Shown here one piece after another: positions 1 to 14,312 of a stretch of DNA of 14,536 nucleotides (positions are counted from its first letter, which is position 1; each line of letters starts with the position of its first letter). The notes beneath the pieces are model-generated. The model had not been told where the DNA came from, ran no database searches, and saw only the letters and a list, made by a program, of their open reading frames with translations. The DNA is from Planctomycetota bacterium. Its GTDB lineage: Bacteria > Planctomycetota > Brocadiia > SM23-32. The stretch is from contig JAGYMJ010000524.1 in the NCBI GenBank assembly GCA_018400625.1, forward strand, positions 1 through 14,536. Reading direction: 5' to 3'. A program made the translations under genes and the position numbers.

Positions 1-13
1 ACAGGTTCATGAG

Positions 14-1018
14 ATGAAACCAGATCGCTACCATCAGCGGTGCCCGCAGGCTCCGCTCATAAGCGAAGAACTGGCCCGGTACATCGGGGAAGAAAATATC
101 TTCGCCTCAGACGAAAGCATCAAAAAACGCTGCTCGCTTTCCGGAGTCGAGTTCGACGTTCCGGTCACTGGCGGCGAGTTCGTTCCATGGGTGGATGAGG
201 ATTACGTACTGGAGGAAAAACTTACCTATCGGCTGCTCCTCTCGCTGCGTGCGGGAGAGAAGACGCTTCTGGTTGGTCCGACGGGCATAGGCAAGTCAAC
301 GCTTATCGAGCAGATCGGGGCGCGTCTTAACTGGCCGGTCGTCAGGGTTGCCGCATCCGGCGGTCTGACAGAGAGTGATCTGCTGGGGGAGTGGACGGTT
401 CGCGACGGAGAGACCGTCTTTAACTACGGCTTCCTGCCCAGGGCCATGCGTATGGGAGCACTGTGCCTTATAGATGAAATAGACGGCATGGAGCCGTCGG
501 TGGCCTTCGCCATACATCAGCTCATGGAGGATGAAGGCCGGCTGGTGCTGCTTCAAAACGGCGGCGAGATAATAAAGCCCCATCCCAGGTTCCGCCTTAT
601 TGCCACTGCCAACACCCTGGGTCACGGCGACGAGACCGGACTCTACACCGGCACCAACGTCCTTAACGAAGCGTTTCTGGACCGGTTTGCGGTGGTTTTC
701 AAGATGAGCTACCTGGACGGACGCAAGGAGGCATCCATCGTCAGGCAGCGTGCGCCCGGCTGCGATGCCGATCTCGCACATAACCTGACCAGGATGGCCG
801 GAGACGTGCGGGAAGCAATCGAGCAGGAAGAGCTCTACTGCACCTTCTCAACCAGAAGGCTCATCAATTTTGCAAGGAAGTACTGTCAGCTCGGCGACTT
901 CGAGGCCGCTCTCGGACTCACCGTGCTTAACAAGCTGGCCGATTCCGACAGTCAGGTGGTCTATGAGATATGCCAGCGCCATTTCGGTTCCTTACTGGAG
1001 GGTAAACAAGATGCATAG
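14..1018 (+). CDS. CobS-like / MoxR-type AAA+ ATPase
   Basis: 334-aa single-domain AAA+ ATPase. Visible motifs are Walker A GPTGIGKS (residues 88-95), Walker B LCLIDEID (150-157), sensor-1 RLIATAN (194-200) and an arginine-finger-like LDRF (222-225). The segment GKSTLIEQIGARLNWPVVRV resembles the CobS subunit of cobaltochelatase, and the family belongs to the MoxR branch, whose members remodel partners together with a VWA protein. Such a partner follows at once: the next gene starts 8 nt before this stop, so the two are very likely translationally coupled. The role is inferred to be ATP-driven remodelling of a protein or metal-containing target in the cytoplasm. No CobN or other cobalamin gene is seen, so I do not call it cobS. 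The ATG at 14 has no clear ribosome site, and upstream sequence is cut by the window edge, so the start is only probable. Confidence 0.9.
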   Translation: MKPDRYHQRCPQAPLISEELARYIGEENIFASDESIKKRCSLSGVEFDVPVTGGEFVPWVDEDYVLEEKLTYRLLLSLRAGEKTLLVGPTGIGKSTLIEQIGARLNWPVVRVAASGGLTESDLLGEWTVRDGETVFNYGFLPRAMRMGALCLIDEIDGMEPSVAFAIHQLMEDEGRLVLLQNGGEIIKPHPRFRLIATANTLGHGDETGLYTGTNVLNEAFLDRFAVVFKMSYLDGRKEASIVRQRAPGCDADLAHNLTRMAGDVREAIEQEELYCTFSTRRLINFARKYCQLGDFEAALGLTVLNKLADSDSQVVYEICQRHFGSLLEGKQDA

Positions 1019-2780
1019 TAAAACACTCGAGACGAGTCTTGAGAAAGTAAGCCATATTCTGTCCCATAAATACGGCGTGAACGTGATTTTTGAGGGTAGT
1101 TCTTGCAAGACCGACGGCAACACTATATACCTGCCGTCACTGCCGGAAAATGTGCCTGATGACTTGATGGGGGCCGTCCGGGGGTGGTGTGATCACGAGG
1201 TCTCACATATCCTCTACACACAGACCGAACTCGGCCCTTATTTTCAGAAAAAGCATGGCAGGCAGGCTTTCGGCATACTCAACTCCCTGGAAGACGGACG
1301 GATCGAGCGCCTGCTCTCGGAAAAATACCCGGGAGCTTCCATCAACCTGAAGGAAGCGCTGCAGTTCGTGGCCAAAAAGGAACATGAGAATGCGTCCGGG
1401 CGTAGTCCTTTCAACCACTTTACTGCCGCCCTTTACACAAGAGCGGCCGGCAGACCGGATCAGGACTGGGTAGCGCCTCAGGGCTATATGGCTGCGGACG
1501 CCTTCAGTGAAGAGATCGAAGCCGCCGCCCGGGCCGAGACCACCGAAGAAGTAGCTGAGTCGGCTCGTCGCATCTGGGAACAGTTAGGTACCGATCTGAA
1601 AAAAGAAGACGCCCAAGAGGACGACGGAGCTCAGGGTGGAGATTCCTCCGACTCCTCTGAAGACCAACACCAGCAGGAAGGAGACGGAGAAGAGGAAACG
1701 GATGATGAATCCCCGGAAGAAAAGCCCGAAAGCGCTCCCGGAGGCCCGGAGCAGTCAGAAGAGCAGGAAGAAAAGGAACCTCAGGGCAAGCGCGGCAGCG
1801 GAAGCAGCGAAGGTTTTTCATCGGAAGAAAGTCCCATGGACAGGCTCTCCTCGCTCATCTCCAAGGAGGCGGAGCAAAGCTCTACAGAGGGTTCCGATTC
1901 CTACCGCGTCTATACCGACCGGTATGACGTTGTGGAAGTGCCGGAGCAGGCGGACGGTTATGACTATCGGGAAGAGCTGAAAAGCCTTGAGAGCTACGCC
2001 TCATGCATGCGGCGAAAGCTCCTTCAGACGCTACAGGGACGCCAGAAGGTCAGGTGGCTCAGGTCAAGGAGCCGCGGCAAGCTCGATCCTCGCGCGCTGC
2101 ACAGGCTGAGAACCAATGCGTCTCCGAAGGTGTTTCGCCAGCAAAGAGTGAGGAAAGGCGGCGACACCGCCTGCACTCTGCTGCTCGACGTATCGGCTTC
2201 GATGCGCGGGCCGCAGATAAAGCTTTGCAGGCATCTCGCCCTGGTGTTTGCCCAGACGCTCTCACTGCTCGAGTTCCCGACCGAGATCATCGCCTTCAGC
2301 ACGGCCGACAGGGACCTGCGCTACGAGATTTCTCAGGAAACTGGCGTGAGCGAACAGGAACTGGCCCGGCGCTACTCGCGCATAATTCCGCTCTACCACG
2401 CCGTATTCAAGCAGTTCGATGAGCCGTGGAAGAAGGCGGCAAGGAGGCTCGGGCAGCTGCGTTCACAAGCTCTTACGCCATTGGGCGAATCTCTACTTTT
2501 TGCAGCCGGACGTCTGGCAAGGCGCGAAGAAAGGCGTAAAGTGCTCATGTGTCTCACCGACGGCGAACCGGTTACGGGCGCGTGGAACGAACAGGTTACG
2601 TTCGAGCATGCACGAGAAGCAGTAAAGCGCATCAGCCATGCCGGCATAGAACCGGTCGGAATAGGCATACAGGCCGAGTGCGTGCAGGATCTTTTCCCAC
2701 GCAGCGCGGTGATCTACGTGCTGGAAGAGCTCACTCACACGTTCCTTTCGGAGCTGCGGAAGGTTTTGTCCCAGCAGTAA
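1011..2780 (+). CDS. CobT-like VWA-domain protein with HExxH motif
   Basis: 589-aa protein. I chose the ATG at 1011 because GGAGGG lies 8 nt upstream and the conserved protein begins there; an upstream in-frame ATG at 870 lies inside the ATPase gene. The N-terminal part carries HEVSHILYT (HExxH at 62-66) and LEDGRIER (93-100), both seen in CobT-like proteins. Residues about 195-300 are an acidic Glu/Ser/Asp-rich linker. The C-terminal VWA domain has a MIDAS: DVSAS (393-397), Thr in LTPLGE (489) and Asp in LTDGEP (517). In this family the VWA protein forms a complex with the MoxR/CobS ATPase encoded just upstream. The HExxH could bind a metal, and protease activity is possible but unproven. 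The VWA assignment is very firm, the pairing with the ATPase is firm and the substrate is unknown. Confidence 0.9.
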   Translation: MHSKTLETSLEKVSHILSHKYGVNVIFEGSSCKTDGNTIYLPSLPENVPDDLMGAVRGWCDHEVSHILYTQTELGPYFQKKHGRQAFGILNSLEDGRIERLLSEKYPGASINLKEALQFVAKKEHENASGRSPFNHFTAALYTRAAGRPDQDWVAPQGYMAADAFSEEIEAAARAETTEEVAESARRIWEQLGTDLKKEDAQEDDGAQGGDSSDSSEDQHQQEGDGEEETDDESPEEKPESAPGGPEQSEEQEEKEPQGKRGSGSSEGFSSEESPMDRLSSLISKEAEQSSTEGSDSYRVYTDRYDVVEVPEQADGYDYREELKSLESYASCMRRKLLQTLQGRQKVRWLRSRSRGKLDPRALHRLRTNASPKVFRQQRVRKGGDTACTLLLDVSASMRGPQIKLCRHLALVFAQTLSLLEFPTEIIAFSTADRDLRYEISQETGVSEQELARRYSRIIPLYHAVFKQFDEPWKKAARRLGQLRSQALTPLGESLLFAAGRLARREERRKVLMCLTDGEPVTGAWNEQVTFEHAREAVKRISHAGIEPVGIGIQAECVQDLFPRSAVIYVLEELTHTFLSELRKVLSQQ

Positions 2781-2888
2781 CGTAGCATCGTTTATGGTTT
2801 TGAGGGCACCCGCGGGTTTTTAGACATGTATCATAAAGACTTGCGGGGCGCTCTTTTTTCTTTTACTCAAAATACGGAGGTTTGCATT

Positions 2889-3491
2889 ATGAATGGAGCA
2901 GAAAATACTCAAGTGTTGGCGCAGGCGGTGGAAAAGCTTTGCAGCGATGATTTCGATTACCTGCACCAAAGCGGGGTGCTGGAGAATCCGCCGAGCCGTC
3001 CTCAATTCACTCCAACTGAGCAGTCAACGCCTGACCGGGAAGAAAGTGCTCAGGAAACGGGTTCTGAGAAAAATAATCCTCAGGAAAGCGCCTCTGAGGA
3101 ATCTGCCGGAGACGAAAGCATTTTCGATAGATCAGAAGAGGGAGAGGCAAAGAAAGGAGAGAAAGAGGAAGAAGGTGAAGCGAAAAAAAACGAACCGCTC
3201 GGAGGGAACAGTAGTGGCCACCAGTGGCCGGAGGTCGGCACCATTCTGGAGGCCGATTACGAGGGCTTGCACTACGAAGCGGAGGTTATAAGCGCCCCTC
3301 GATACAAGAGCGGCAAAGCCGTTCGCATCCTCACCGGCCCGGCCACCGATGCTGTGGAGCGGTCCATGTCGGGCGCGATGCTGAAGGCGACCGAGAAGCA
3401 GCGCAAGGCGAGCGATCTCGGCAAAAAAGGCGCATCCAACGGCTGGAAGTTCTGGAAGGTTAAGAAAACACCTTCATCCGCCGTCCGGTAA
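2889..3491 (+). CDS. Acidic-linker protein with C-terminal RAMA/DUF4357-like domain
   Basis: 200-aa protein. The start at 2889 is chosen because ACGGAGG lies 8 nt upstream; an in-frame ATG at 2826 has no comparable site. Residues about 40-105 are low-complexity and rich in Glu, Ser and Lys, with EEGEAKK occurring twice. The last 90 residues hold a small domain running from WPEVGTILEADYEG to NGWKFWKV. That layout (GT-L-A-Y-G-YEA-V, then a tail ending NGW-FWKV) resembles the RAMA/DUF4357/DUF2924 class of small domains found with restriction and DNA-modification proteins; this is by eye and not certain. It sits 108 nt after the CobT-like gene and ahead of a terminator hairpin, so it is probably the third gene of the same unit, perhaps an adaptor. 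An A8 run inside the gene is discussed under findings. Confidence 0.75.
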   Translation: MNGAENTQVLAQAVEKLCSDDFDYLHQSGVLENPPSRPQFTPTEQSTPDREESAQETGSEKNNPQESASEESAGDESIFDRSEEGEAKKGEKEEEGEAKKNEPLGGNSSGHQWPEVGTILEADYEGLHYEAEVISAPRYKSGKAVRILTGPATDAVERSMSGAMLKATEKQRKASDLGKKGASNGWKFWKVKKTPSSAVR

Positions 3492-3506
3492 AAACGCAAA
3501 GGAGCG

Positions 3507-3529
3507 GGCCCCGGTCAACAGCCGGGGCC
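3507..3529 (+). terminator. GC-rich hairpin after the CobS/CobT-like unit
   Basis: Perfect 8-bp stem, GGCCCCGG (3507-3514) against CCGGGGCC (3522-3529), with a 7-nt loop, followed by TTATCTT. It begins 16 nt after the stop of the acidic-linker gene and lies between convergent genes. The U-tract is imperfect, so termination may be partial. The remaining bases to 3666 are AT-rich and I see nothing else in them. Confidence 0.65.
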
Positions 3530-3666
3530 TTATCTTCCGTCTTTACGCCTATTTTCCCAACATAATAAGCCTCATAGATCACTGATACCATCACAATCTA
3601 CCCAATTTTTCTCGCTTATTCCCATTTCTTAAACATCATTTCTATAGCGGTTGGTTCCATCAAAAC

Positions 3667-4401
3667 TCAACCTGCAAGTTGATTATGGGTTGGGTTTTTG
3701 GATTTGCGGCCCGGGGAAAAATCCGGTCTCCTATACTTGGCCCGCCCTATGAGGTGATCGTCGGTCTCAAACCTTATGTAAATACCTTCTGCGAGAATAT
3801 TGCTATAGGCAGAAGTTGTCAAAACATTTTGAACGAGGTCGCTGAGCATTTCCGAAGAATGTACCTCTCCTCGCCATAATTCAGGTGTAGTGTGGAAAAC
3901 CTTTTGCAGCAGAGAATATAATCGCTTTGTGGTCAGAAACTGATTGTTTTCTCGGTCCAGCACATCGTATGCGATAAAGTATTCGGGCAATGAGTCATAG
4001 AAAACGGCATGGGTTTGCCACAGCCATTCGCCAAATATGACATATTTTTTGTTAAGGACGCTCCAAAGCCCTTGATAATTTTCCCATACCCAGTTGCGGA
4101 AAGCGTTGTATTGTTCTTTTTCCCTCACTTCCAGCAGCCCGGCCCGTTTTTGACAGACAGGCCGGTTCTTTTCGGCAAAGAACACCCCTACATTACAGCC
4201 ATCAAGCTTTTCCTGCAAAACCACTTCGCAGGAAGAGCACATATGGTCCACTTCCTTTGCAGCTATAATCCGGTCGTCATCGATAACAGCACTGCCCGAA
4301 AGATGCAGGGTACGTGGGAATTTGAATGCTGCAAAGGCGGAAGATTCATCTGATGAGTTATTGTCCTTTCCACACATGATACTAATTATGCTCCTTGTCA
4401 T
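3667..4401 (-). CDS. ATP-dependent RNA ligase family protein
   Basis: 244-aa nucleotidyltransferase with the full set of RNA-ligase motifs: motif I EKLDG (64-68) with Lys65 as the predicted adenylated residue, motif III FGEWLW (123-128), motif IIIa FIAYDVLD (142-149), motif IV AEGIYIRF (204-211) and motif V GRAKYRRPDF (219-228). It has no obvious extra domain, so it matches the compact Rnl2-like RNA_ligase family, which seals 3'-OH/5'-phosphate RNA ends. It is divergent from the phosphoesterase and TIM-barrel operon, with about 320 bp between starts. The start is uncertain. The ATG at 4401 has no clear ribosome site, while an in-frame ATG at 4377 has AAGGAG about 13 nt upstream, a longer spacing than usual. 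Substrate (tRNA, rRNA or other) cannot be told from sequence. Confidence 0.9.
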   Translation of the reverse strand: MTRSIISIMCGKDNNSSDESSAFAAFKFPRTLHLSGSAVIDDDRIIAAKEVDHMCSSCEVVLQEKLDGCNVGVFFAEKNRPVCQKRAGLLEVREKEQYNAFRNWVWENYQGLWSVLNKKYVIFGEWLWQTHAVFYDSLPEYFIAYDVLDRENNQFLTTKRLYSLLQKVFHTTPELWRGEVHSSEMLSDLVQNVLTTSAYSNILAEGIYIRFETDDHLIGRAKYRRPDFSPGRKSKNPTHNQLAG

Positions 4402-4493
4402 AAAGCCTATATGCGTTACCTTTGAGCTCCGCCCGCCCTTCCCGTCCTTGGTTCGTCCCTCCTAATTATCCTTTGCATATAAACTTCATGTCT

Positions 4494-4499
4494 ATTATA
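4494..4499 (-). promoter_or_regulatory. Possible -10 box for the RNA ligase gene
   Basis: On the minus strand this reads TATAAT, about 90 nt before the RNA ligase start. No good -35 match lies at 17 nt; TGGTCA at 15 nt is a partial match. A G-rich leader would follow in the transcript. Confidence 0.3.
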
Positions 4500-4583
4500 C
4501 TCATTAACAGTTCATGACCAAAAAGACTGACGCACGACATGCTTTTACCAAAGCGGACTTTTTCTTTGAATTTTTCCCCGGAC

Positions 4584-4599
4584 GTTCACAAATGTGAAC
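4584..4599. promoter_or_regulatory. Palindromic operator-like site in the divergent region
   Basis: GTTCACA-AA-TGTGAAC is a perfect 7-bp inverted repeat with a 2-nt centre, lying between the divergent RNA ligase and phosphoesterase genes. Its size and symmetry fit a dimeric repressor or activator site. A short hairpin is the alternative. The rest of 4402-4701 shows no gene. Confidence 0.4.
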
Positions 4600-4719
4600 A
4601 GCCCGTCAGGAGAAGGTCAGAATAACCCAACCCCAAAAGCATAGATAGGGTAGAAGGACAGCCGTAACAAAATTATACATTTTCTGAAAAACAATCGCAA
4701 AATGGCAGGAAAATATGAT

Positions 4720-5529
4720 ATGAAAGTTGCCTGGACAACCGATATTCATCTTGAATTTCTCGACAAATCAGGATGTAAGGAGTATGTTGATAGCCTTAAA
4801 GAGGTTAATATGGATGCTTTATTGATAACAGGGGACATTGGAACGGCCAGCACTGTTGTCGATTACCTGGCCTTTCTGGCGCATTCGCTCCATGTTCCCA
4901 TCTACTTTTGTCTCGGGAATCATGATTACTATGGAGGGACTCTGTCGACTGTGAGAGAAGGAGTTAAGAAAATTTCTTCCGAGATTCGTTGCCTGAACTG
5001 GGTGGCTGAGATGGGAGTAGCAACTTTATCGGAAGAGACCGCTTTAATAGGGCACGGAGCCTGGGCCGATGGACGTTTGGGGGATTACAAGAATTCGACA
5101 GTAAGAATAAGCGACTTCATATATATCGAAGATTTGGCGATGCTGGATGATGAGCAGAAGCTCGAAAAGATGCAGGAATTGGCGGACCAGGCAGCGGAAT
5201 ATTTCCAGCTTAATGTTCCGCAGGCGCTGGATATGGCCGACCATGTTATCGTTTTAACACACGTGCCGCCGTTTGCAGAATCCGCCTGGTATGACGGAAA
5301 ACAGTCCGGCCCGTATTGGCTGCCTTTTTTTGCTTCCGAAGCGACCGGAAAAGCATTGCTGGAGATAATGGAATCTCACCCGGGAAAAAAGATGACGGTT
5401 TTTTGCGGTCATACGCACGGCGAAGGAGTTGTCGACATCCTGCCCAACCTGAAGGTGATTACCGGCAAAGCCCAATATCGCAAACCGGATATTAACAGGA
5501 TATTCGATCTGGAAGAATTCACAAAATGA
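4720..5529 (+). CDS. Calcineurin-like metallophosphoesterase
   Basis: 269-aa cytoplasmic phosphoesterase. All two-metal motifs are present: D-x-H in TTDIH (D8, H10), GD (38-39), GNHD (66-69), the histidine in LTHVPP (181) and GHTH (230-233). I prefer the ATG at 4720 over the in-frame ATG at 4702 because AGGA lies 9 nt upstream and family members typically begin with a short M-x-V-x-W-x-T-D-I-H. Enzymes of this fold hydrolyse phosphomonoesters or diesters, including nucleic acid ends and cyclic phosphates. Its stop overlaps the next start as ATGA, so the TIM-barrel gene is translationally coupled. With a divergent RNA ligase next door, a role in trimming or dephosphorylating RNA or DNA ends is a reasonable inference, but the substrate is not shown. 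Confidence 0.9.
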   Translation: MKVAWTTDIHLEFLDKSGCKEYVDSLKEVNMDALLITGDIGTASTVVDYLAFLAHSLHVPIYFCLGNHDYYGGTLSTVREGVKKISSEIRCLNWVAEMGVATLSEETALIGHGAWADGRLGDYKNSTVRISDFIYIEDLAMLDDEQKLEKMQELADQAAEYFQLNVPQALDMADHVIVLTHVPPFAESAWYDGKQSGPYWLPFFASEATGKALLEIMESHPGKKMTVFCGHTHGEGVVDILPNLKVITGKAQYRKPDINRIFDLEEFTK

Positions 5530-6398
5530 ATAAAAAAGACAAGCCATGGTATCTTAAGAAGCGAAAGCCCATTCCACCCCCAAAGCAGGTTCACGAGGAC
5601 CGAAAAAAAGAGGCCCGTAGAACCGTTGCACGGGGCTCTGTACCCGATGAAGAGGTTAAAAAAGTTGAAAACCGGAAATCCGGGGCAGATGCAATCAGGG
5701 TAGGCGGGCGCGTTGGGTTCAATAAGATTGAGGAAATCCACGAACGCTTCCGGGATGTGGATTTCCCCATAGAGCTTGCACTTCCCTGGCGGTATGAACT
5801 GTGGGAGCAGGTCGAGCCGCAATTTGATGAGATGCTCGAATGTCTGGACTCCCTGGACTTCGAAGTCCTTTCGGTTCACGCCACACAGGGATGGATCAGC
5901 AAGGATACGTTCCTTTCATGGGGACCGAAGACATGTCAATTGGCTGACCGGTTTGGCGGCAGAGCTATTACCGTCCATCCCAACCGGGCAAAAAAACCGC
6001 GGGAAACCCATCAGGATATGGCCCGCCGTAATATAAAAAAAGTGCAGCGCGAAACAAGTGTCACCGTATCGGTCGAGACCTTCGGCGGTAAAAAGCGGGT
6101 CCTTACACCTCAAGAAATTATGGACTTTGGCCTGCCCATGACGCTGGATACTTCACATATTCGCGAGGACAAACTTATTATAGGTATAATAGAATCATAT
6201 TGGCAAAACATTCCGGTTATCCATCTTTCGGCACGCAACGCAAGAGAACAGCATCTCCCTGTCGACCGGTTTTGTCTTGATGTTGTGGAGTATTTATTGC
6301 AGCTTGGATGGACGGGTAATATAGTGCTTGAATATCTTCCCCAGTATCGAGAACGACTGCGCCCAGACATAAAAAAAGTCCGCGACGTGCTGGCTTAG
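5526..6398 (+). CDS. TIM-barrel AP-endonuclease-2 / sugar-isomerase-like protein
   Basis: 290-aa protein. Residues 1-60 are a basic, proline- and lysine-rich extension that could contact nucleic acid. Residues 61-290 form a xylose-isomerase-like TIM barrel, with metal-ligand-type residues at strand ends: His118 (SVHATQG), His151 (TVHPNRA), Glu184 (SVETFGG), Asp208 and His211 (LDTSHI), His233 (VIHLSARN) and Glu269 (VLEYLPQY). This fold includes both sugar isomerases/epimerases and endonuclease IV-type enzymes. The chemistry here is open, though the basic tail and the phosphoesterase and ligase neighbours favour a nucleic-acid substrate. The ATG overlaps the upstream stop by 4 nt, so the two proteins are probably made together. 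The 143 nt after it hold no gene and no convincing terminator. Confidence 0.85.
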   Translation: MNKKDKPWYLKKRKPIPPPKQVHEDRKKEARRTVARGSVPDEEVKKVENRKSGADAIRVGGRVGFNKIEEIHERFRDVDFPIELALPWRYELWEQVEPQFDEMLECLDSLDFEVLSVHATQGWISKDTFLSWGPKTCQLADRFGGRAITVHPNRAKKPRETHQDMARRNIKKVQRETSVTVSVETFGGKKRVLTPQEIMDFGLPMTLDTSHIREDKLIIGIIESYWQNIPVIHLSARNAREQHLPVDRFCLDVVEYLLQLGWTGNIVLEYLPQYRERLRPDIKKVRDVLA

Positions 6399-7126: not shown

Positions 7127-7477
7127 TCACTTCGTCATTACCGTGAATATAATGAGCAGAACCAACTGCGTTGCCGCTATTAAAAGGAATACCGTTCTAA
7201 AACAGCTCTTGCGTGTCTTGTGGCGGAAAATCTGCTGTCCTACGAAAGCACCCGGCGTGCCGCCGGCTGCCGCCATGATGTGCAGAACATACTCCGGCAC
7301 CCGCCTGACGCTGGAGCCGGCCGCATATTTGTCGTAGCCGTAAGCCAGTAGCGTGGCCGCATTGACGGCAATGAACACCGCCCGCAGAAAAGTAATTCCG
7401 GCCAGCATACACACCGCACCGATCAAAATAACCGAACAGCCCGCAGCCGTAAAAAAAAGCCTGTCTTTTTGTGTCAT
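7127..7477 (-). CDS. DUF1294 family membrane protein
   Basis: 116-aa integral membrane protein. It shows the DUF1294 signature: an Asn in the second helix (N39), YDKYAA (48-53), RRVPE (58-62), GGTPGAF (72-78) and RHKTRK (85-90). There are about four hydrophobic segments, at 8-28, 31-47, 62-83 and 94-114. The family is widespread and has no established biochemical role. Its ATG overlaps the stop of the upstream gene as ATGA, with GGTGG and AAGGA just upstream, so the two are translationally coupled. Being tied to another small membrane protein downstream of the caspase genes may be meaningful or may simply reflect operon drift. Confidence 0.88.
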   Translation of the reverse strand: MTQKDRLFFTAAGCSVILIGAVCMLAGITFLRAVFIAVNAATLLAYGYDKYAAGSSVRRVPEYVLHIMAAAGGTPGAFVGQQIFRHKTRKSCFRTVFLLIAATQLVLLIIFTVMTK

Positions 7478-7794
7478 TCCTTACCACCTTTTTTAGTCCT
7501 GAAAATTATACCAATCCAGGTTATTAGTAGAAGAGCAGCCAAGCCCATAAGGACGGCATATCCCATCGCGGCATAGGTCAGCAAAATAGGTCTTATGAAT
7601 ACCTGGTCCATGCCCAACACGGCAAGTGTAGTCACACAAAGCGCCACAATAGCTCGAGCCGGTTTTGAATTCTCACCGGAAAATATCGGTATGTCCTGCA
7701 TTGTCCGGAAAACGATAGCAAAGACAATCACAAATATTGCACCGACAGGTATCAGTACACGCAGGTCGGAATAAAGTTCCAATGCGTTCTCCAT
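7474..7794 (-). CDS. Small three-helix membrane protein, unknown
   Basis: 106-aa hydrophobic protein that I do not recognise. Likely membrane helices are at about 12-30, 46-62 and 70-97, with a charged tail RTKKGGKE that would sit in the cytoplasm. AAGGTG lies 8 nt before the ATG, supporting the start. It follows the 57-aa gene by 23 nt and overlaps the DUF1294 gene by 4 nt, so it belongs to the same transcript as the caspase-like protease upstream. A membrane partner or accessory protein is possible. No catalytic motif is visible. Confidence 0.75.
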   Translation of the reverse strand: MENALELYSDLRVLIPVGAIFVIVFAIVFRTMQDIPIFSGENSKPARAIVALCVTTLAVLGMDQVFIRPILLTYAAMGYAVLMGLAALLLITWIGIIFRTKKGGKE

Positions 7795-7817: not shown

Positions 7818-7991
7818 CTATCCCTGAACTTCAAGCTCCACTCCGTTGAGTTTACAAAGGCGTCTAACTTCATCCAAAGCTTCCTCACTCGCATTTTCCA
7901 GCAAGTGGCCGGGGAGAGTTATTTGAGTTTTCCCGGTGTTTATCATCTCCTGCACGTATTCCATTAATTGCTGGTCCGCTGCAGAATTCAT
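7818..7991 (-). CDS. 57-aa protein, unknown
   Basis: Small acidic soluble protein. The start at 7991 is chosen because AAGGAG lies 8 nt upstream; an in-frame upstream start at 8018 lacks this. A helix-like N-terminus (residues 2-19) is followed by TQITLPG, a second helical stretch (32-48) and a C-terminal strand VELEV. I recognise no family. It begins 33 nt after the caspase-like gene and is followed 23 nt later by the small membrane gene. Its size and position suit a regulator, inhibitor or adaptor of the protease, which is inference from context only. Confidence 0.65.
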   Translation of the reverse strand: MNSAADQQLMEYVQEMINTGKTQITLPGHLLENASEEALDEVRRLCKLNGVELEVQG

Positions 7992-8024
7992 TATCAAAAC
8001 TCCTTCCGTTAATATCAAAAACTG

Positions 8025-9635
8025 CTACTCCATTTCCTCAAACATCCGCTTGGCATGAGGCGAGCCCCAGTATTTCCACGCTCTTTCCAAAAGCACTCTT
8101 GCCATATTCATATATTCTTGTTCCTTTGCAACCTCGGCCAAAGATATAAGTAGCCTGCTACCTGTACTCTTATCCACACCTGCTTTTCCCATGGCCAAAG
8201 CGAAACTGGAACCACCATTGATGTCATTTACCTTCATACAAGATTCCGCACATTCAAGGCGGTACCTGTTCCTGTAATGCTCCAGCCATCTCCAGTGTAT
8301 AAAACCAGCAAGTCCGGGGCCGAATATCAACGCTGCTAGCAAACCTATAAATAAAGAAATTGGTTCACTGATTTCGAATATAGAATAAGCAAAAAGGCGT
8401 CCAGCAACTAATCCTGCGCCAGGACTCCCAAGCGCTATTGCGAACAGATAAAGACCGCCTATATCAAAATCTTTATTATAATCGGAAGCTTTCAACCATT
8501 TTTTCCATTCAGGCAGATCGGCCTTTTTAGGTGAAAATTGCTTCCCGCTGCTCTTCCCCAGCCCCGCCTCTTCATCTAAAACTCTTTTTATATCATCTTT
8601 GCGATCACTTAATACAGGATACTTGCTTGCGGCTTCGGTCACAAAAGACCTCCATTTTGCCTTTGAACCACCATGCTTTTCCAAAAAACCCCGAGCATCT
8701 TTACGAACTATCGTTTCCGCCTTCAGAGTCTCCAGTTCCTTTTTAAGTGATTCATCCGCTTCTTTGCCGGCCTGTTCAGCCTTTTTCTGCAACTGTTGAA
8801 TTTTTTTGTCCTTTTCGGCGAGTTCATCTTTCAGTCTACTCATCTCGTTTTCGGCTCGTTTCAAACGTTCTTCGGTTGTTAGCCGACGTTGAGCTATACC
8901 AAACGATCCGCTCCCCCGGCATATCCTCACAGGTTCCTGCTTAATGCGCTTACTGCGACTCCATTCAAGCACCCGTTCCCGGGTAGCATTATATACTCCA
9001 TCCAGCGTAACTCTTCCATCCGCCTCTGCCGGCGCAGACTCTTTTATGGCTTCGGCCAGAAAAAACGTGAACACTCCCTGCCCCTTCGCCGGCCATTCGT
9101 GTGATATCTGCTCGGCGTCGCAGCTCGCTATGGTGTAAAGACCGCGTCCGTCCTCGAGCTCGTCCTTGAAAGCGGCAGTCATAGGAGCAACATCACGCCC
9201 GGCGCCACTGTGGCACGCGTCGAGCATCAGCACCTTGCGGTCGGCGTTGCATCGTTCGAGCATTTCACGGATGTATTGTATTGGTATTCCTGTAACTCCA
9301 AGCGATTCCAGCGTGGCGTCACACGGCGCTAAAAAGCCGCTGCCTTTATACTCACGTCCGTGTCCCGCGAAATAAACAAGGACGAGGTCATCGGGTCCGG
9401 GCCGCTGCAGCCACGTGCCCAGCCAGGAATGGATGTTCCCGAAGGTCGGCTGATGTTCCCTGCTTTGATCTTCGGTCAGCATAAGCACGTTATCGGGCTC
9501 AAACCCGCACTGCTCGGACGTGAGCGTCTCCCGGAGCAGCTTTGTGTCGTTCACACAATAATTCAGAGGGCCGAGGCTCTCGTGGTAATCGTTTATGCCT
9601 ATAAGGACGGCGTATTTGTTGTTGGAATCTGCCAT
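8025..9635 (-). CDS. Caspase-like (peptidase C14) protease with coiled coil and two membrane helices
   Basis: 536-aa protein numbered from the ATG at 9635. GGAG is 11 nt from that ATG but only 2 nt from the alternative at 9644, so the downstream start is favoured. The N-terminal caspase domain (7-250) opens with KYAVLIGINDY and has the catalytic dyad His92 (YFAGHG) and Cys141 (LDACHSG). A charged coiled coil follows (253-309), then a helical, basic region (310-390), two hydrophobic helices (about 393-414 and 425-447) and a helical C-terminal tail. This predicts a protease tethered to the cytoplasmic membrane by a helical hairpin. Bacterial caspase homologues act in antiphage and cell-death systems and in signalling by proteolysis. 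The neighbouring second caspase and coiled-coil membrane protein suggest a shared complex. No sensor domain is obvious, so the activating signal is unknown. Confidence 0.92.
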   Translation of the reverse strand: MADSNNKYAVLIGINDYHESLGPLNYCVNDTKLLRETLTSEQCGFEPDNVLMLTEDQSREHQPTFGNIHSWLGTWLQRPGPDDLVLVYFAGHGREYKGSGFLAPCDATLESLGVTGIPIQYIREMLERCNADRKVLMLDACHSGAGRDVAPMTAAFKDELEDGRGLYTIASCDAEQISHEWPAKGQGVFTFFLAEAIKESAPAEADGRVTLDGVYNATRERVLEWSRSKRIKQEPVRICRGSGSFGIAQRRLTTEERLKRAENEMSRLKDELAEKDKKIQQLQKKAEQAGKEADESLKKELETLKAETIVRKDARGFLEKHGGSKAKWRSFVTEAASKYPVLSDRKDDIKRVLDEEAGLGKSSGKQFSPKKADLPEWKKWLKASDYNKDFDIGGLYLFAIALGSPGAGLVAGRLFAYSIFEISEPISLFIGLLAALIFGPGLAGFIHWRWLEHYRNRYRLECAESCMKVNDINGGSSFALAMGKAGVDKSTGSRLLISLAEVAKEQEYMNMARVLLERAWKYWGSPHAKRMFEEME

Positions 9636-9685
9636 ATTATCCATATCTCCAGATTTAAAAATATCTCTTCCCCTTTCGTCAGGGC

Positions 9686-9714
9686 ATTGTATGCCAATTA
9701 CTCATATCGTGCAA
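9686..9714 (-). promoter_or_regulatory. Possible internal promoter for the membrane caspase gene
   Basis: On the minus strand TTGCAC (9709-9714), a 17-nt spacer and TACAAT (9686-9691) lie in the 100-nt gap before the caspase-like gene. This gap is the longest within the run, so a separate promoter here is plausible. Confidence 0.35.
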
Positions 9715-9736
9715 CCCATTCAAACCAGCCCAATGG

Positions 9737-11113
9737 TTAGATATCATCCACAGTAGATTGATCTTTCTTCGCCTCCATTATCAGGGCACGAACATTGACT
9801 ATCTGATCGCGGAAGGCCTGATTAGCCTCACTGGCCACTTCCTTCGCCTCCACGTCCCCGCTTTGTTTTACCGAAGCGGAACTTCCTGCATCGCCTGACA
9901 TCCTGTAGGTCGTTCCGCTCGGCAGCTGCAGGCTCAAAGTATGTGTATGCTGCTCAATAGTCATGCCCGAGGCAGGATACCATTCGAGGTTCTGCTCCGT
10001 TTCCACACCTATGGAGACCACATCCGCATATGGAATTTTTATTGCCAATGTGTAAGGTATTCTACTATTTAAGATGTTGGCATAAGCGCGGAACACATTA
10101 ACGCATTCTTCCCCACATATAGCTATTTGGAAAAAGTAATGTCCTGCAAGGTAGGTTTGCCTGGCCTCGCTGAAACTGATAGCCGAAAAAGCATTCAATT
10201 CCTCGGACTCGGCCCCGGCATCTTTTCCGTCCTTATTTTCCGACAATCCCCATAAAGATATTACACGCCTCTTGAAATCCTCCCAGCAACGACTTTCCAG
10301 TTTGTCAAAAGCCCCTTTCATTGGTTTAACAAGTTCATCCGCCAAATTTCGTATTTCTTTTGCGGATTTACCAATTCCTGTCACAACGGATTTTGGAGCA
10401 GAGTGTGTCTGAAGGAATGTTGGCGACCATACTTCCGCACACCGCCTGTCCAGCATATCTGCTTTTTCTATTCCGAGAGCATCAAAGACCTGTTGGCGTA
10501 CCATATCAAGATGTCCTGCTATATATTCGCTTACTTCTTCTTCGGAGGCTATGGAGTCAAGGTAAAGGCTGTATAATTTTTCCAGAATTTGATCCAAATC
10601 AGTCAACCACTTTTTGCACTCCCTCTCTTTCTCCTTAATATCTCTTTGCACTTTTTCCTTAATTGATTGAATTTCCTTTTCAAATTTTTCCCTGATCTCG
10701 GACGTTTTTTGGCTTAACATTTTTTTTCTTAAACTTATAACTACGAAAAAAAGCACAAAAGAAACCACTACAGAGCCAAATCCATATCCAACAACGGGAG
10801 ATATCTCTTCTTCAACTCCATATAAACCCAATATCAATCCAACCGTACCAATCATAAAAAACAAGAACAACAGCTTATTTAAAAATGATCCAGTGGCACT
10901 AACTTTACCCTCTTCAGATTTCATAGAGGAACGTTTGGAGTCTATCCGCCGGTCGCCATCTCTTTGTATTCTCGACTTATCTTCCTCGAGTGATTGACGT
11001 ATTCTTGATTTTTCTTGTCTAATCTCTTCCTGCATATCTGCTTTCTCAAGACGCGGCAGGAAAAAGCGAATTACACGCAGCCTCTCTTCGTCCGTGTTTT
11101 CAACATCTTCCAT
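9737..11113 (-). CDS. Coiled-coil protein with a two-helix membrane hairpin
   Basis: 458-aa protein. The ATG at 11113 is chosen because GAGGTG precedes it by 5 nt; a TTG at 11128 would overlap the upstream gene. Residues 20-65 are charged and coiled-coil-like. Two membrane helices follow at about 79-99 and 107-128, then a long coiled coil (130-185), a helical region (190-290) and a strand-rich segment (310-410), including KIPYADVVSIGVE and TLSLQLPSG, that could be a PH-like fold. I recognise no family. The gene starts 4 nt after the soluble caspase gene, with its ribosome site over that gene's stop, so the two are coupled. It has no protease or ATPase motif. A scaffold, membrane sensor or protease substrate are the options I would weigh. 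Confidence 0.85.
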   Translation of the reverse strand: MEDVENTDEERLRVIRFFLPRLEKADMQEEIRQEKSRIRQSLEEDKSRIQRDGDRRIDSKRSSMKSEEGKVSATGSFLNKLLFLFFMIGTVGLILGLYGVEEEISPVVGYGFGSVVVSFVLFFVVISLRKKMLSQKTSEIREKFEKEIQSIKEKVQRDIKEKERECKKWLTDLDQILEKLYSLYLDSIASEEEVSEYIAGHLDMVRQQVFDALGIEKADMLDRRCAEVWSPTFLQTHSAPKSVVTGIGKSAKEIRNLADELVKPMKGAFDKLESRCWEDFKRRVISLWGLSENKDGKDAGAESEELNAFSAISFSEARQTYLAGHYFFQIAICGEECVNVFRAYANILNSRIPYTLAIKIPYADVVSIGVETEQNLEWYPASGMTIEQHTHTLSLQLPSGTTYRMSGDAGSSASVKQSGDVEAKEVASEANQAFRDQIVNVRALIMEAKKDQSTVDDI

Positions 11114-11117
11114 GAAA

Positions 11118-12449
11118 TCACCTCTCAAAAGATGAAATTAACTCTTTACCTTCCGAAATCACCGATGCAAGGTTCCTTTCCCTCTCCGTTAACTGCTCTA
11201 CATCAGTTTGTCCATTCAGAATAACTTGCAGTTCCTCGGGAACACGGCGGCGCAGCGGCCGGTAGTATTTTTGTTCGAGCAGCCGGGCCAGAAAACTTGC
11301 AAGCGAAGACCATTCCCCTCCGTGCAATTCAGCCAATCGTTCCGCAATTAATTTTGCCTCCCGATTGCGCAGTTTTCTTACCGGTTTTTGCGCCAATCTT
11401 GCCACACATTCCAGCACATCCGCCGTATCTGTAATCCGATTGTTTTTCCGAAGTATTGACTTTGCCCGCTTTGTTCGCCCGTCGATAAGAGCTTTTTCCG
11501 CTCCCAAAAGCACGGAACTTTCCTCTGTATTCGGCTGCACCCCAATATCAGTCTTGGGAGTTGCTGGTGCCGGTTCCTGTTCTGCAATGCCTTGATTTGT
11601 ATCGGTAGTAGTTCCTTGGATATTTCCGCCTGGCTCCGCTTGCAAAACCGGCACTTCCCCTGCGATTTCAAGATGCGGCATCTGGGACTGAGCCTCCGGC
11701 AGCAAATTCCAGCATGTCTCCTGCATCCTGTTTTTTACGCCTGAATGCAGGTCCGCAATGGATAAAGGTTCTTCGCCAGCCCCTTCAAGTTCCTTCAGCA
11801 GGTTATGGCAAAACCATCCGTGTTTTCCCTGTGGGTATTCGTAGGCCACCTGTCCTTCCCAGCAAGAACAGATAACCGCCTTGGCTATTGTTTGGGGGGA
11901 TGTAGCGCTTGCACCTGCGGAGCTGGCCACCGACTGGATATCCCGGCTCATCTGAGCAGGCATCTCATTGTCCGCTCCACTACGCGTGCCCGCTACGGAT
12001 ACGTTACGGCATGCGTCAAGGATCAGCAGGTGTTGTCCTGCAGTTATGCCGGCAAAAAACTCCCTGACCGTATCCAGCGGCACCGCCGTTTCTTTCAGGA
12101 GTATTTCCGAGCCAGGTTCTGTATCCGAAGTCCCGAGAAAAGTATGCCCGCCGCGGCAGAACCCGTGACCGGCGAAAAGGAATATAATGGTATCATTGGG
12201 TTTGACCGGAGCCTTGGAGAACCTATCAAGAGCTTTCAAAACCCTGCGCCTGTCCGGGTAGGAGTCGCCGGGAGCCTCATCAAGCAAAGAGATGCAATAG
12301 TTCGGCTCAAGTTTGAATCGACGCATAAACGCATTTCGCACGTCCCGCGCATCCGTACAGGCAAACCGAAGGTCGGCGATCTGCTCGCTGTCGTAGCGGT
12401 TAACGCCGATGAACAGGCCATAGAGTTTTCCCGGTTTTCTTTCGTTCAT
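11118..12449 (-). CDS. Soluble caspase-like (peptidase C14) protease
   Basis: 443-aa protein. The caspase domain spans about 8-235, opening with LYGLFIGVNRYD and bearing the dyad His95 (FLFAGHG) and Cys147 (LILDACRN). Residues about 240-310 form a Pro/Thr/Gly-rich linker. The C-terminal region (310-443) is helical and basic and contains no membrane segment or family I know. AAGGA lies about 6 nt before the ATG at 12449. It is the first gene of the minus-strand run and is followed after 4 nt by the coiled-coil membrane protein. A TATAAT reads on the minus strand at 12565-12560, about 110 nt upstream, without a good -35 box. Like its paralogue it should cleave after a specific residue, but the specificity cannot be read from sequence here. 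The helical tail may bind a partner or regulate activity. Confidence 0.92.
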   Translation of the reverse strand: MNERKPGKLYGLFIGVNRYDSEQIADLRFACTDARDVRNAFMRRFKLEPNYCISLLDEAPGDSYPDRRRVLKALDRFSKAPVKPNDTIIFLFAGHGFCRGGHTFLGTSDTEPGSEILLKETAVPLDTVREFFAGITAGQHLLILDACRNVSVAGTRSGADNEMPAQMSRDIQSVASSAGASATSPQTIAKAVICSCWEGQVAYEYPQGKHGWFCHNLLKELEGAGEEPLSIADLHSGVKNRMQETCWNLLPEAQSQMPHLEIAGEVPVLQAEPGGNIQGTTTDTNQGIAEQEPAPATPKTDIGVQPNTEESSVLLGAEKALIDGRTKRAKSILRKNNRITDTADVLECVARLAQKPVRKLRNREAKLIAERLAELHGGEWSSLASFLARLLEQKYYRPLRRRVPEELQVILNGQTDVEQLTERERNLASVISEGKELISSFER

Positions 12450-13223: not shown

Positions 13224-14312
13224 ATGCAGCTGAGTCTTATGGGATATTACTATCAACTCCCGGAGCATAAGCGTAAGAAGATGGATAACTCCAGGGAAGC
13301 GGCTTTCCACCGGAACGTAGTTGCGCGTATCGATGAGGAACCGTTCAGGGTGCTTTATTGCCAGGCTAACGGCGCCCCGAACAAGCCTATTCGCCAGATG
13401 GTGGGCGGTTATATACTGATGCATCACAAAAACTGGTCAACCAGAGAACTGTTTGAGCATATAGAGTTCAACCTGCTTACGATGAGAGCTCTGGGGATTG
13501 TTGATTTCGATCAGTCAGCTTTTTGCCGAGCCACTTATTTTAATTTTCTGGGCCGTTTGGCTGATCACTATATAGAGACAGGCGATAACCTTCTGGAGCA
13601 AGTTTTCGACCATCTTACCGCCAAGCAGCTGCAGGAGCTGGGTATTAAGGGAGATATTCAGCGTACGGACTCCTTTCAGGCTATTTCCAATATCGTCTCA
13701 TACACGCGGGTGCGGCTATTGGTGGAGATGCTCCTGCGGCTTCACAGAGTATTGTCGGAGTCCGACAAGAAGCGTCTTGCCGAGTTGTTTGGCCCTTATG
13801 TCAAGGATGATGCAGCTCATTACATTGACAATCTCCAGCAGTCAGATGTTCCCAAAGAGCTTGAGCAGTTGGGGCAAATATATTCCCAGCTGCATGAAGC
13901 ACTAAAAGGCAGATACGGTGATGTAGAAGTATTCCGTCTTTTTCAGCGCACTTTCGAAGAGCAGTTTGTCCGAACGGAAGAGAAAATCCAGGTGCGGGAG
14001 AGCAAAGATATACCGAGTGATTCGCTTCAATCTCCCGATGATCCGGATGCGACTTTTCGTCGCAAGAACGCCAAGAAGCATAGAGGCCAGGTGGTGAGCG
14101 TCACGGAGAAAGCCAACCCGGATAATGAAGTGAACCTGCTCACTGACGTAACCGTAGCTTCCAACAATAAGGATGATGCAGAGATACACAAAGAGCGTGT
14201 TGAGAAGATAAAAGAGAAAACCCCGGAGTTTAATGAAAATCATACGGACGGCGTCTGGCTGCAGAAAAATGGCGAATTTCACGTTTCGCCCACTAAAGAC
14301 ATTTGCCGATAG
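13224..14312 (+). pseudogene. IS1182-family transposase, C-terminally truncated
   Basis: 362 codons. The N-terminal DUF772-type region is clear (PIRQMVGGYILMHHKNWSTR at 55-74, then LFEHIEFNLL). QRTDS carries the first catalytic-type Asp (149). A later segment, DPDATFRRKNAKKHRGQVVS, and then NNKDDAE are standard for the family. The frame stops soon after HTDGVWLQKN, the site of the second catalytic-type Asp in relatives. The C-terminal part with the last catalytic Glu is missing, and a full enzyme would be roughly 100-150 residues longer. Reading other frames downstream gave no continuation I could recognise, so deletion is more likely than a simple frameshift. The right inverted repeat begins 86 nt after the stop. 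It is probably inactive alone. The ribosome site before 13224 is weak and an in-frame ATG at 13239 is possible. Confidence 0.8.

Follow-up and report, generated by a model that had tools for sequence, protein, structure and literature searches.

How bacterial caspases are switched on is, to our knowledge, mostly an open question, and a planctomycete locus with two caspase genes around a gene for a membrane protein raises it directly: do the three products form a proteolytic cascade, or does the membrane protein act as something other than a substrate? The window analysed here is a stretch of 14,536 nucleotides (nt) from Planctomycetota bacterium (GCA_018400625.1, JAGYMJ010000524.1), and is an entire contig (G000:C524) of a genome of 698 contigs that is 83% complete. 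Its minus strand encodes caspase 1 (11118..12449), a coiled-coil membrane protein referred to here as the middle protein (9737..11113), and caspase 2 (8025..9644). The original prediction, made from the sequence alone, treated all three as one functional unit in which caspase 1 may activate or cleave the membrane components. Comparison with related sequences indicates that the conserved unit is caspase 1 with the middle protein, rather than three genes. We put it at slightly better than even that this core is a two-component switch, whereby the membrane-bound middle protein recruits an output protein carrying a C-terminal domain (CTD), here a caspase, in conflict or cell death.

Pairing of caspase 1 with the middle protein

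Genomic context was read at four loci, comprising the window, L008 (from G111, a Phycisphaeraceae genome of the same phylum as the window's), L014 and L015. A CTD-bearing gene lies immediately 5' of the middle gene at all four, with spacings of 4 nt, a 1-nt overlap (L008), 20 nt and 23 nt. At L008 this gene is a caspase 1 orthologue, 41% identical to caspase 1 over nearly the whole length. L014 and L015 carry distant middle homologues (29 and 33% identity), and the preceding genes encode proteins of 308 and 295 amino acids (aa) with no Pfam caspase match. The C-terminal halves of these two partners align with the CTD of caspase 1 (for L014, E 1e-6 in that single comparison), and their N-terminal parts are 53% identical to each other with no convincing Pfam match. 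The expectation that middle homologues stand beside caspases has therefore had a mixed outcome, with a caspase partner at one of the three other loci and none at two. The proposal that caspase 1 activates or cleaves a membrane component is weakened, because the same membrane protein pairs with a caspase-free CTD protein at two of the four loci.

Wider searches gave a similar association. A CTD profile matched one of 246 genomes of the phylum, and that genome has the middle protein (scoring covered at most 16 candidates, out of up to 71, in each listed genome, and a miss is possible); among five chosen genomes it matched three, exactly those with a full middle protein. Five of the eight database middle homologues other than the window's own (one of them that of L008) sit on one contig with a caspase 1 orthologue of full length, judging from equal longest-contig sizes (24538, 1111963, 11613, 9629 and 9252). 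Homologues P0002, P0005 and P0009 have no size-matched caspase 1 orthologue, the contig of P0005 (2536 bases) being too short for both genes, and no middle protein could be matched to P0011, another caspase 1 orthologue. When the window pair and five database pairs were compared, CTD distances correlated with middle-protein distances at r 0.88 (5 of 720 permutations as high) and caspase-domain distances at r 0.64 (58 of 720). Leaving out the divergent window pair gave 0.92 (1 of 120) and 0.00 (56 of 120), respectively. In this small sample, CTD divergence appears to track the middle protein better than caspase-domain divergence does.

The catalytic part of caspase 1 is conventional. Both window proteases score far above the Pfam PF00656 cut-off of 21.4 bits (caspase 1, 73.2 bits, E 3.2e-20; caspase 2, 76.5 bits, E 3.3e-21), and both have the GHG and DxC contexts of the His/Cys pair of Peptidase C14 (caspase superfamily), so that the predicted intact dyads are confirmed as H95 and C147 (AGHGF/LDACR) in caspase 1 and H95 and C144 (AGHGR/LDACHSG) in caspase 2. 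Cys147 had been numbered correctly; the residue formerly given as Cys141 is C144, the count having begun at the in-frame Met4. Across 17 aligned rows (caspase 1 and 16 relatives), H95 and C147 do not vary. D33 aligns with a metacaspase Asp in HMMER alignments, and an Asp lies two residues before the catalytic Cys; these are candidates for the acidic S1-pocket residues that go with metacaspase-type (basic P1) specificity in T. brucei MCA2.

Caspase 1 (443 aa) comprises an N-terminal caspase domain (about residues 9-270; 11640..12425, minus strand), a disordered linker and an all-helical CTD (residues 308-443; 11121..11528, minus strand), which is the proposed docking module. Its AlphaFold2 (AF2) model has a mean predicted local distance difference test (pLDDT) score of 81.5, and no transmembrane (TM) segment was predicted in it, in line with the soluble protease expected. 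A fold search with the whole protein, rather than with the CTD separately, gave a listing filled by matches to the caspase domain. Among relatives, near-identical caspase domains carry different C-terminal tails, namely the CTD, FGE or a TPR-like tail: the domains of P0015 (CTD) and P0020 (TPR-like) agree at 93.5% of positions, and those of P0013 (CTD) and P0017 (FGE) at 86.9%. On a tree of 17 caspase domains, 16 of them with a tail label (TPR-like being assigned by eye), the tail types changed seven times against a shuffled-label mean of 6.9, with no clustering. At the level of sequence, the closest pairs alone show a caspase domain that behaves as a cassette and a CTD that goes with the membrane protein.

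The shared CTD, the adjacency, the co-divergence and the swapped tails together make the CTD look like a dock, the middle protein like its membrane receptor and the caspase like an exchangeable output.

The middle membrane protein

The middle protein (458 aa, from the ATG at 11113) had been described as a coiled-coil protein with a membrane hairpin, and this agrees with hydropathy and with an AF2 model from nine sequences, which places long helices on either side of the hairpin (residues 75-134; 10712..10891, minus strand). Among 11 middle proteins, the window's included, hydropathy gave two hydrophobic segments in six and one stretch of 33-49 residues in five. Lys or Arg occurs three to five times within the 15 residues before the hydrophobic part in 10 of the 11 and at least twice after it in seven, a distribution that weakly favours both ends lying in the cytosol. 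Mean pairwise identity over the 11 homologues is 21% for residues 1-11, 79% for residues 12-22, which form the N-terminal motif LRxxRFFLPRL (11048..11080, minus strand), 31% and 23% for the arms (23-75 and 131-172), 24% for the hairpin (76-130), 49% for 173-292, 34% for 293-318 and 61% for the C-terminal domain (319-452; 9758..10159, minus strand), to which no fold was assigned.

The earlier suggestion of a PH-like C-terminal part found no support: Pfam searches up to E 10 on eight of the 11 homologues gave only stray matches, none of them to PH and the best being a luciferase catalytic domain (E 0.002, three of the eight members), and no PH match was found in the PDB. The AF2 model is unreliable over this domain (pLDDT blocks of 28-45). 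No Pfam or NCBIfam model reaches its cut-off on the family. DUF2207_C in the hairpin part was set aside, with 21-22 bits against a cut-off of 33 in the window (E 2.3e-4) and L014 (E 1.5e-4) and no match in L015, as was NCBIfam MAG1210 (19.5 of 275 bits). PADLOC matches to LeoBC (1.7e-7), LeoB and LmuB were weak, and these and the PDB matches obtained with the middle profile, of which AopB (E 0.007) and apolipoprotein A-I came first, lie mainly on the coiled-coil and TM part and were likewise not retained.

The hairpin between long helices could suggest that the middle protein does the killing, as a pore former with two TM helices, a coiled coil and SLATT-like or gasdermin-like logic that is held back until its CTD partner releases it. 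Caspase-fired membrane killers have a precedent in the bacterial gasdermins described in the available part of PMC9079055. However, the hairpin is among the least conserved parts, with the N-terminal motif and the C-terminal domain the most conserved, which would be odd for a pore, and non-caspase partners exist. In addition, no SLATT or gasdermin model was among the Pfam matches of the window up to E 0.1, a HMMER search that distant relatives can escape; the AF2 model is too weak for a gasdermin fold comparison. We regard a pore former as the least probable of the explanations considered.

The family is rare and patchy. It numbers nine proteins, including the window's own, among 5.8 billion (with scoring confined to the roughly 8,000 candidates that had the most words in common), and overlapping genome samples gave 2 of 294, 4 of 397, 3 of 392, 2 of 75, 1 of 251 and 3 of 161 matches. 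Pooled over all samples, full-length matches come from four genomes (G000, G111, G636 and G615). The PF00656 genome search missed caspase 1 itself despite its 73 bits in hmmscan, and the genome counts are possibly lower bounds. Partial matches in G544 (a 339-aa protein with several hydrophobic stretches by eye) and G713 (a 131-aa coiled-coil protein) were dropped as chance resemblances of coiled-coil or TM stretches once their ORFs had been read. A scan of named genome contigs found no locus with the single middle sequence and one with the alignment. For the middle protein, tblastn gave no relative among plasmids and phages, and a pattern scan gave none among viral contigs; the latter also lacked any relative of caspase 1. 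Caspase 1 matched nine plasmid records and caspase 2 matched 102, none covering more than 80% of the query.

Caspase 2 and a wider set of caspases

Caspase 2 (539 aa, 8025..9644) has a metacaspase-like domain, the coiled coil and two TM helices predicted earlier, and a helical tail; the TM segments (395-413 and 421-443) are weak. No gene with caspase domain, coiled coil and TM hairpin was seen at the three other middle-protein loci read, and neither the L014 nor the L015 genome yielded a match to the caspase 2 profile. A paralog on G000:C603 (54% identity over 315 aa) has different neighbours, comprising a caspase fragment, a TM protein of about 290 aa, a DUF4384 coiled-coil protein and the end of an S8 subtilase. 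The subtilase gene (L020:3-728) lies downstream of the paralog and is cut by the contig edge, and a second protease class may be part of this cluster. The TM protein has relatives in L008 (E 3e-18) and in L050 (G784:C192), from a genome of the same genus, where a caspase-2-tail gene has as neighbours an AAA ATPase, a coiled-coil protein of 198 aa and the TM protein of about 290 aa (2332-5771). That tail gene runs off the contig with its frame open to the edge, and 237 residues are seen without a caspase, although one could lie beyond the edge. The tail of window caspase 2 (residues 432-536; 8037..8351, minus strand) is 34% identical over 105 aa to L034:1495-2208, a gene of the same genus that is truncated by its contig edge and has no caspase in the visible part. 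The DUF4384 proteins of L008 and L020 have the Pfam domain in common, yet no BLAST alignment.

Upstream of the pair, L008 encodes two other intact caspases, one with a single hydrophobic segment and one without any; the caspase 2 profile recognises the caspase domain of each (E 1.8e-22 and 1.9e-21). A caspase-2-like N-terminal remnant (L008:5613-5765; 51 matched codons, E 6.9e-4) lies just upstream of the DUF1294 gene and caspase 1. Several caspases together are thus a recurring theme there, and caspase 2 itself looks like part of a wider modular network and not like a fixed partner of the pair.

These observations bear on the cascade, in which all three proteins would form a single unit, with caspase 1 cutting caspase 2, the middle protein or both at the membrane. 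Shared direction, short junctions and the two intact dyads agree with it, both membrane proteins are plausible local substrates, and the L008 caspases and remnant provide a parallel. However, the caspase 2 layout was not seen at the three other loci read, two of which have no caspase partner, and the caspase 2 paralog has other neighbours; a cascade is judged improbable, a little less so than the pore former. Of the original proposal, the partnership of caspase and membrane protein is supported and the unit of three, as stated, is not.

Neighbourhoods in relatives

The surroundings of the pair were compared across relatives. Contig C95 of G111 encodes a reverse transcriptase (PF00078) with an AAC-rich template (L051:1639-1763), and the genome contains four variable repeats (L008:536-660, L008:4408-4532, L052:6969-7093 and L051:1-110, the last at a contig edge). 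Compared with the template, the repeats are changed at 65 of 123 adenines but only 7 of 362 other bases, a pattern characteristic of a diversity-generating retroelement (DGR). It diversifies FGE domains, two of them in caspase-FGE genes. Of the two repeats on L008, the one at 4408-4532 forms the end of a caspase-GYF-FGE gene that lies 1.6 kb upstream of caspase 1, and the one at 536-660 forms the end of an FGE gene cut by the contig edge; none of the matches is a variable repeat within the caspase 1/middle pair of L008. The neighbourhood of the pair in this Phycisphaeraceae relative can be called immunity-like. In L014 the pair neighbours a TerY-like/PP2C/kinase triad (the PP2C match being just below cut-off), and in L015 an E1-like ThiF protein, an E2 family E protein and an integrase. 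The middle loci of L014 (913-8058) and L015 (1-7473) are divergent from a cluster that, by eye, they appear to share, composed of a HerA-like ATPase, a protein of about 195 aa and a weakly matched sigma-70 region 4 protein. Such settings resemble the conflict systems described in the available parts of PMC7159879, PMC8195603 and PMC10907252.

An alternative is a housekeeping or envelope-stress regulator that has nothing to do with phages or death, with the membrane protein as a tether for a protease in this species and for some other regulator elsewhere. This would fit the PADLOC scan of 10 window proteins, in which no known defence system was recognised in full, the continuation of the gene run into a 3-TM protein and a DUF1294 protein (see below), and the caspase-free variant. 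The distribution, full-length in four genomes over all samples, is unlike that of housekeeping genes, and the neighbours in relatives include DGR-diversified caspase-FGE genes, E1/E2-like and integrase genes and the TerY-like triad. Such a role is considered unlikely, but somewhat less so than either the cascade or the pore former.

A proposed recruitment switch

The two-component switch starts from features read in the sequences: the pair, its adjacency, the shared CTD, the differing N-terminal modules and, in a small sample, the co-divergence of CTD and middle protein. From these we infer physical docking, membrane topology, activation by proximity, substrates and a role in conflict or cell death. 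The middle protein would form an inner-membrane hairpin with both coiled-coil arms and the conserved C-terminal domain in the cytosol, and would recruit a cytosolic output protein via the helical CTD of the latter. In the window, the output would be a metacaspase-type protease on a flexible linker. On sensing a disturbance, or on clustering, the middle protein would gather the docked caspases and so activate them. The activated caspases may then cleave cell proteins, possibly also the membrane-bound caspase 2, which would lead to growth stop or death.

Several points weigh against this switch. The genomic context rests on four loci, four of the six distance pairs were matched solely on equal contig sizes, and just two of the 14 inner branches of the caspase-domain tree, itself a small sample, are well supported. 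A common output role for the L014 and L015 partners, whose N-termini have no assigned family, is assumed, and nothing identifies the C-terminal domain of the middle protein, with its unassigned fold, as the putative CTD binder. The further caspases of L008 are equally in keeping with a locus of several caspases. Among the relatives, G111 alone showed a DGR context, with no DGR search across the window's own genome. PADLOC-DB 2.0.0 found no complete named system among the 10 window proteins (the DUF1294, 106-aa and GNAT proteins not being among them); the pair and caspase 2 matched just the generic 'caspase' model (3.7e-9 and 9.4e-20), besides weak coiled-coil-type matches.

If correct, the switch matters in several ways. 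A dock common to caspase and non-caspase proteins would be a direct, testable handle on bacterial caspase activation. With dock and receptor, bacteria would have arrived independently at the kind of adaptor logic by which animals recruit caspases, and the arrangement resembles a plug-in switch for cell-death or immune signalling.

Layout of the window

The minus-strand co-directional run comprises caspase 1, the middle protein, caspase 2, a 57-aa open reading frame (ORF; 7818..7991), a 106-aa protein with three TM helices predicted by hydropathy (7474..7794) and a DUF1294 membrane protein (7127..7477; PF06961, E 2.6e-20). The gaps along it are, in order, 4, 92 (101 from caspase 2 Met4), 33, 23 and -4 nt, and a GNAT gene follows 45 nt beyond the DUF1294 gene. 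The predicted junctions and shared direction therefore hold, but the proposed end of the operon at 7818 does not, as the 106-aa and DUF1294 genes extend it. The 57-aa ORF has a good ribosome site, and no relative was found among the 50 loci examined. A match between the 106-aa protein and a TM protein of L014 was weak (E 0.006) and was not used. A single copy of DUF1294 was found in G000 and in G111, both at the caspase 1/middle locus, and the two proteins are 55% identical over 96 aa; the DUF1294 gene of G636 lies away from the pair, and none was found in G615. Promoter and terminator scans gave no more matches than expected.

Elsewhere in the window, the plus strand at 2-3491 encodes an AAA_5/CbbQ_C ATPase, a CobT-like vWA protein and a 221-aa protein without a Pfam match. 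An RNA ligase (minus strand), a calcineurin-like phosphoesterase and a weakly matched TIM-barrel protein (both plus strand) occupy 3667-6398, a possible RNA- or DNA-repair cluster. An IS1182-like transposase gene (13224-14312; 58 of 270 bits, below the NCBIfam cut-off) lies near the contig end.

Comparison with known systems

Bacterial gasdermin operons are similar in that a caspase-like protease adjoins a membrane-acting protein; the middle protein of the window differs by its TM hairpin and long helices. The caspase 1/middle pair was not described in the titles or abstracts of the literature searched, which is weak evidence of absence with subscription papers outside its scope. The comparisons that follow refer to the available parts of the sources cited.

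The caspase 1/middle pair resembles prokaryotic metacaspases with FGE or TM modules (PMC3501461), which belong to the same catalytic family and are likewise extended by extra modules; between caspase-FGE relatives and a CTD caspase, identity in the caspase domain reaches 88%. However, a dedicated CTD paired with a membrane protein is not among the metacaspase architectures described there, and multi-metacaspase operons are reported only in Alphaproteobacteria, Bacteroidetes, Cyanobacteria and Deltaproteobacteria (PMC3501461). In the DGR-diversified conflict systems of multicellular bacteria, DGR targets lie near caspase-like peptidase genes, as in G111 (PMC10907252). EACC2/TRADD-N caspase systems likewise combine a constant caspase component with exchangeable modules, but EACC2 precedes the caspase within one protein (PMC8195603); none of the window proteins scanned was named by Pfam as TRADD-N or EACC2-like.

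The closest layout is that of the EACC1-caspase systems, with an adjacent gene pair, one member with a membrane segment and the other with an N-terminal caspase, and with modular domain exchange that includes caspase displacement (Kaur et al. 2020, PMC7159879). The likeness is one of layout and not of homology between the membrane partners. Membrane sensing followed by caspase activation has been proposed for EACC1 (PMC7159879). The EACC1 gene stands on the 5' side and encodes a single TM helix, whereas the membrane protein of the window is the 3' gene and has a hairpin with two hydrophobic segments, long helices and a C-terminal domain of 134 conserved-region residues. The constant element also differs: it is the caspase, with a variable C-terminus, in EACC1 systems and the CTD in the caspase 1/middle pair. 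EACC1 systems occur in actinobacteria and some proteobacteria (PMC7159879), and the four CTD/middle loci read all come from one phylum, that of the Phycisphaeraceae genome. NCBIfam NF047832 (EACC1-associated caspase) scores 65.4 and 118.5 bits on the window caspases, under its 140-bit cut-off.

It is possible, though less likely than not, that the pair is a caspase-recruitment platform apart from the published EACC and TRADD-N systems, in which the receptor would capture any protein with a cognate CTD, be it a caspase in one lineage or a different protein in another, and would in some species be fed by DGR-hypermutated caspase-FGE antigen sensors at the locus. The combination of a membrane partner, a caspase and domain exchange is shared with EACC1. 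Given the NF047832 scores and the different partner layout, the pair is placed as a new form of modular caspase conflict system with an undescribed membrane family, analogous to EACC1 but distinct from it.

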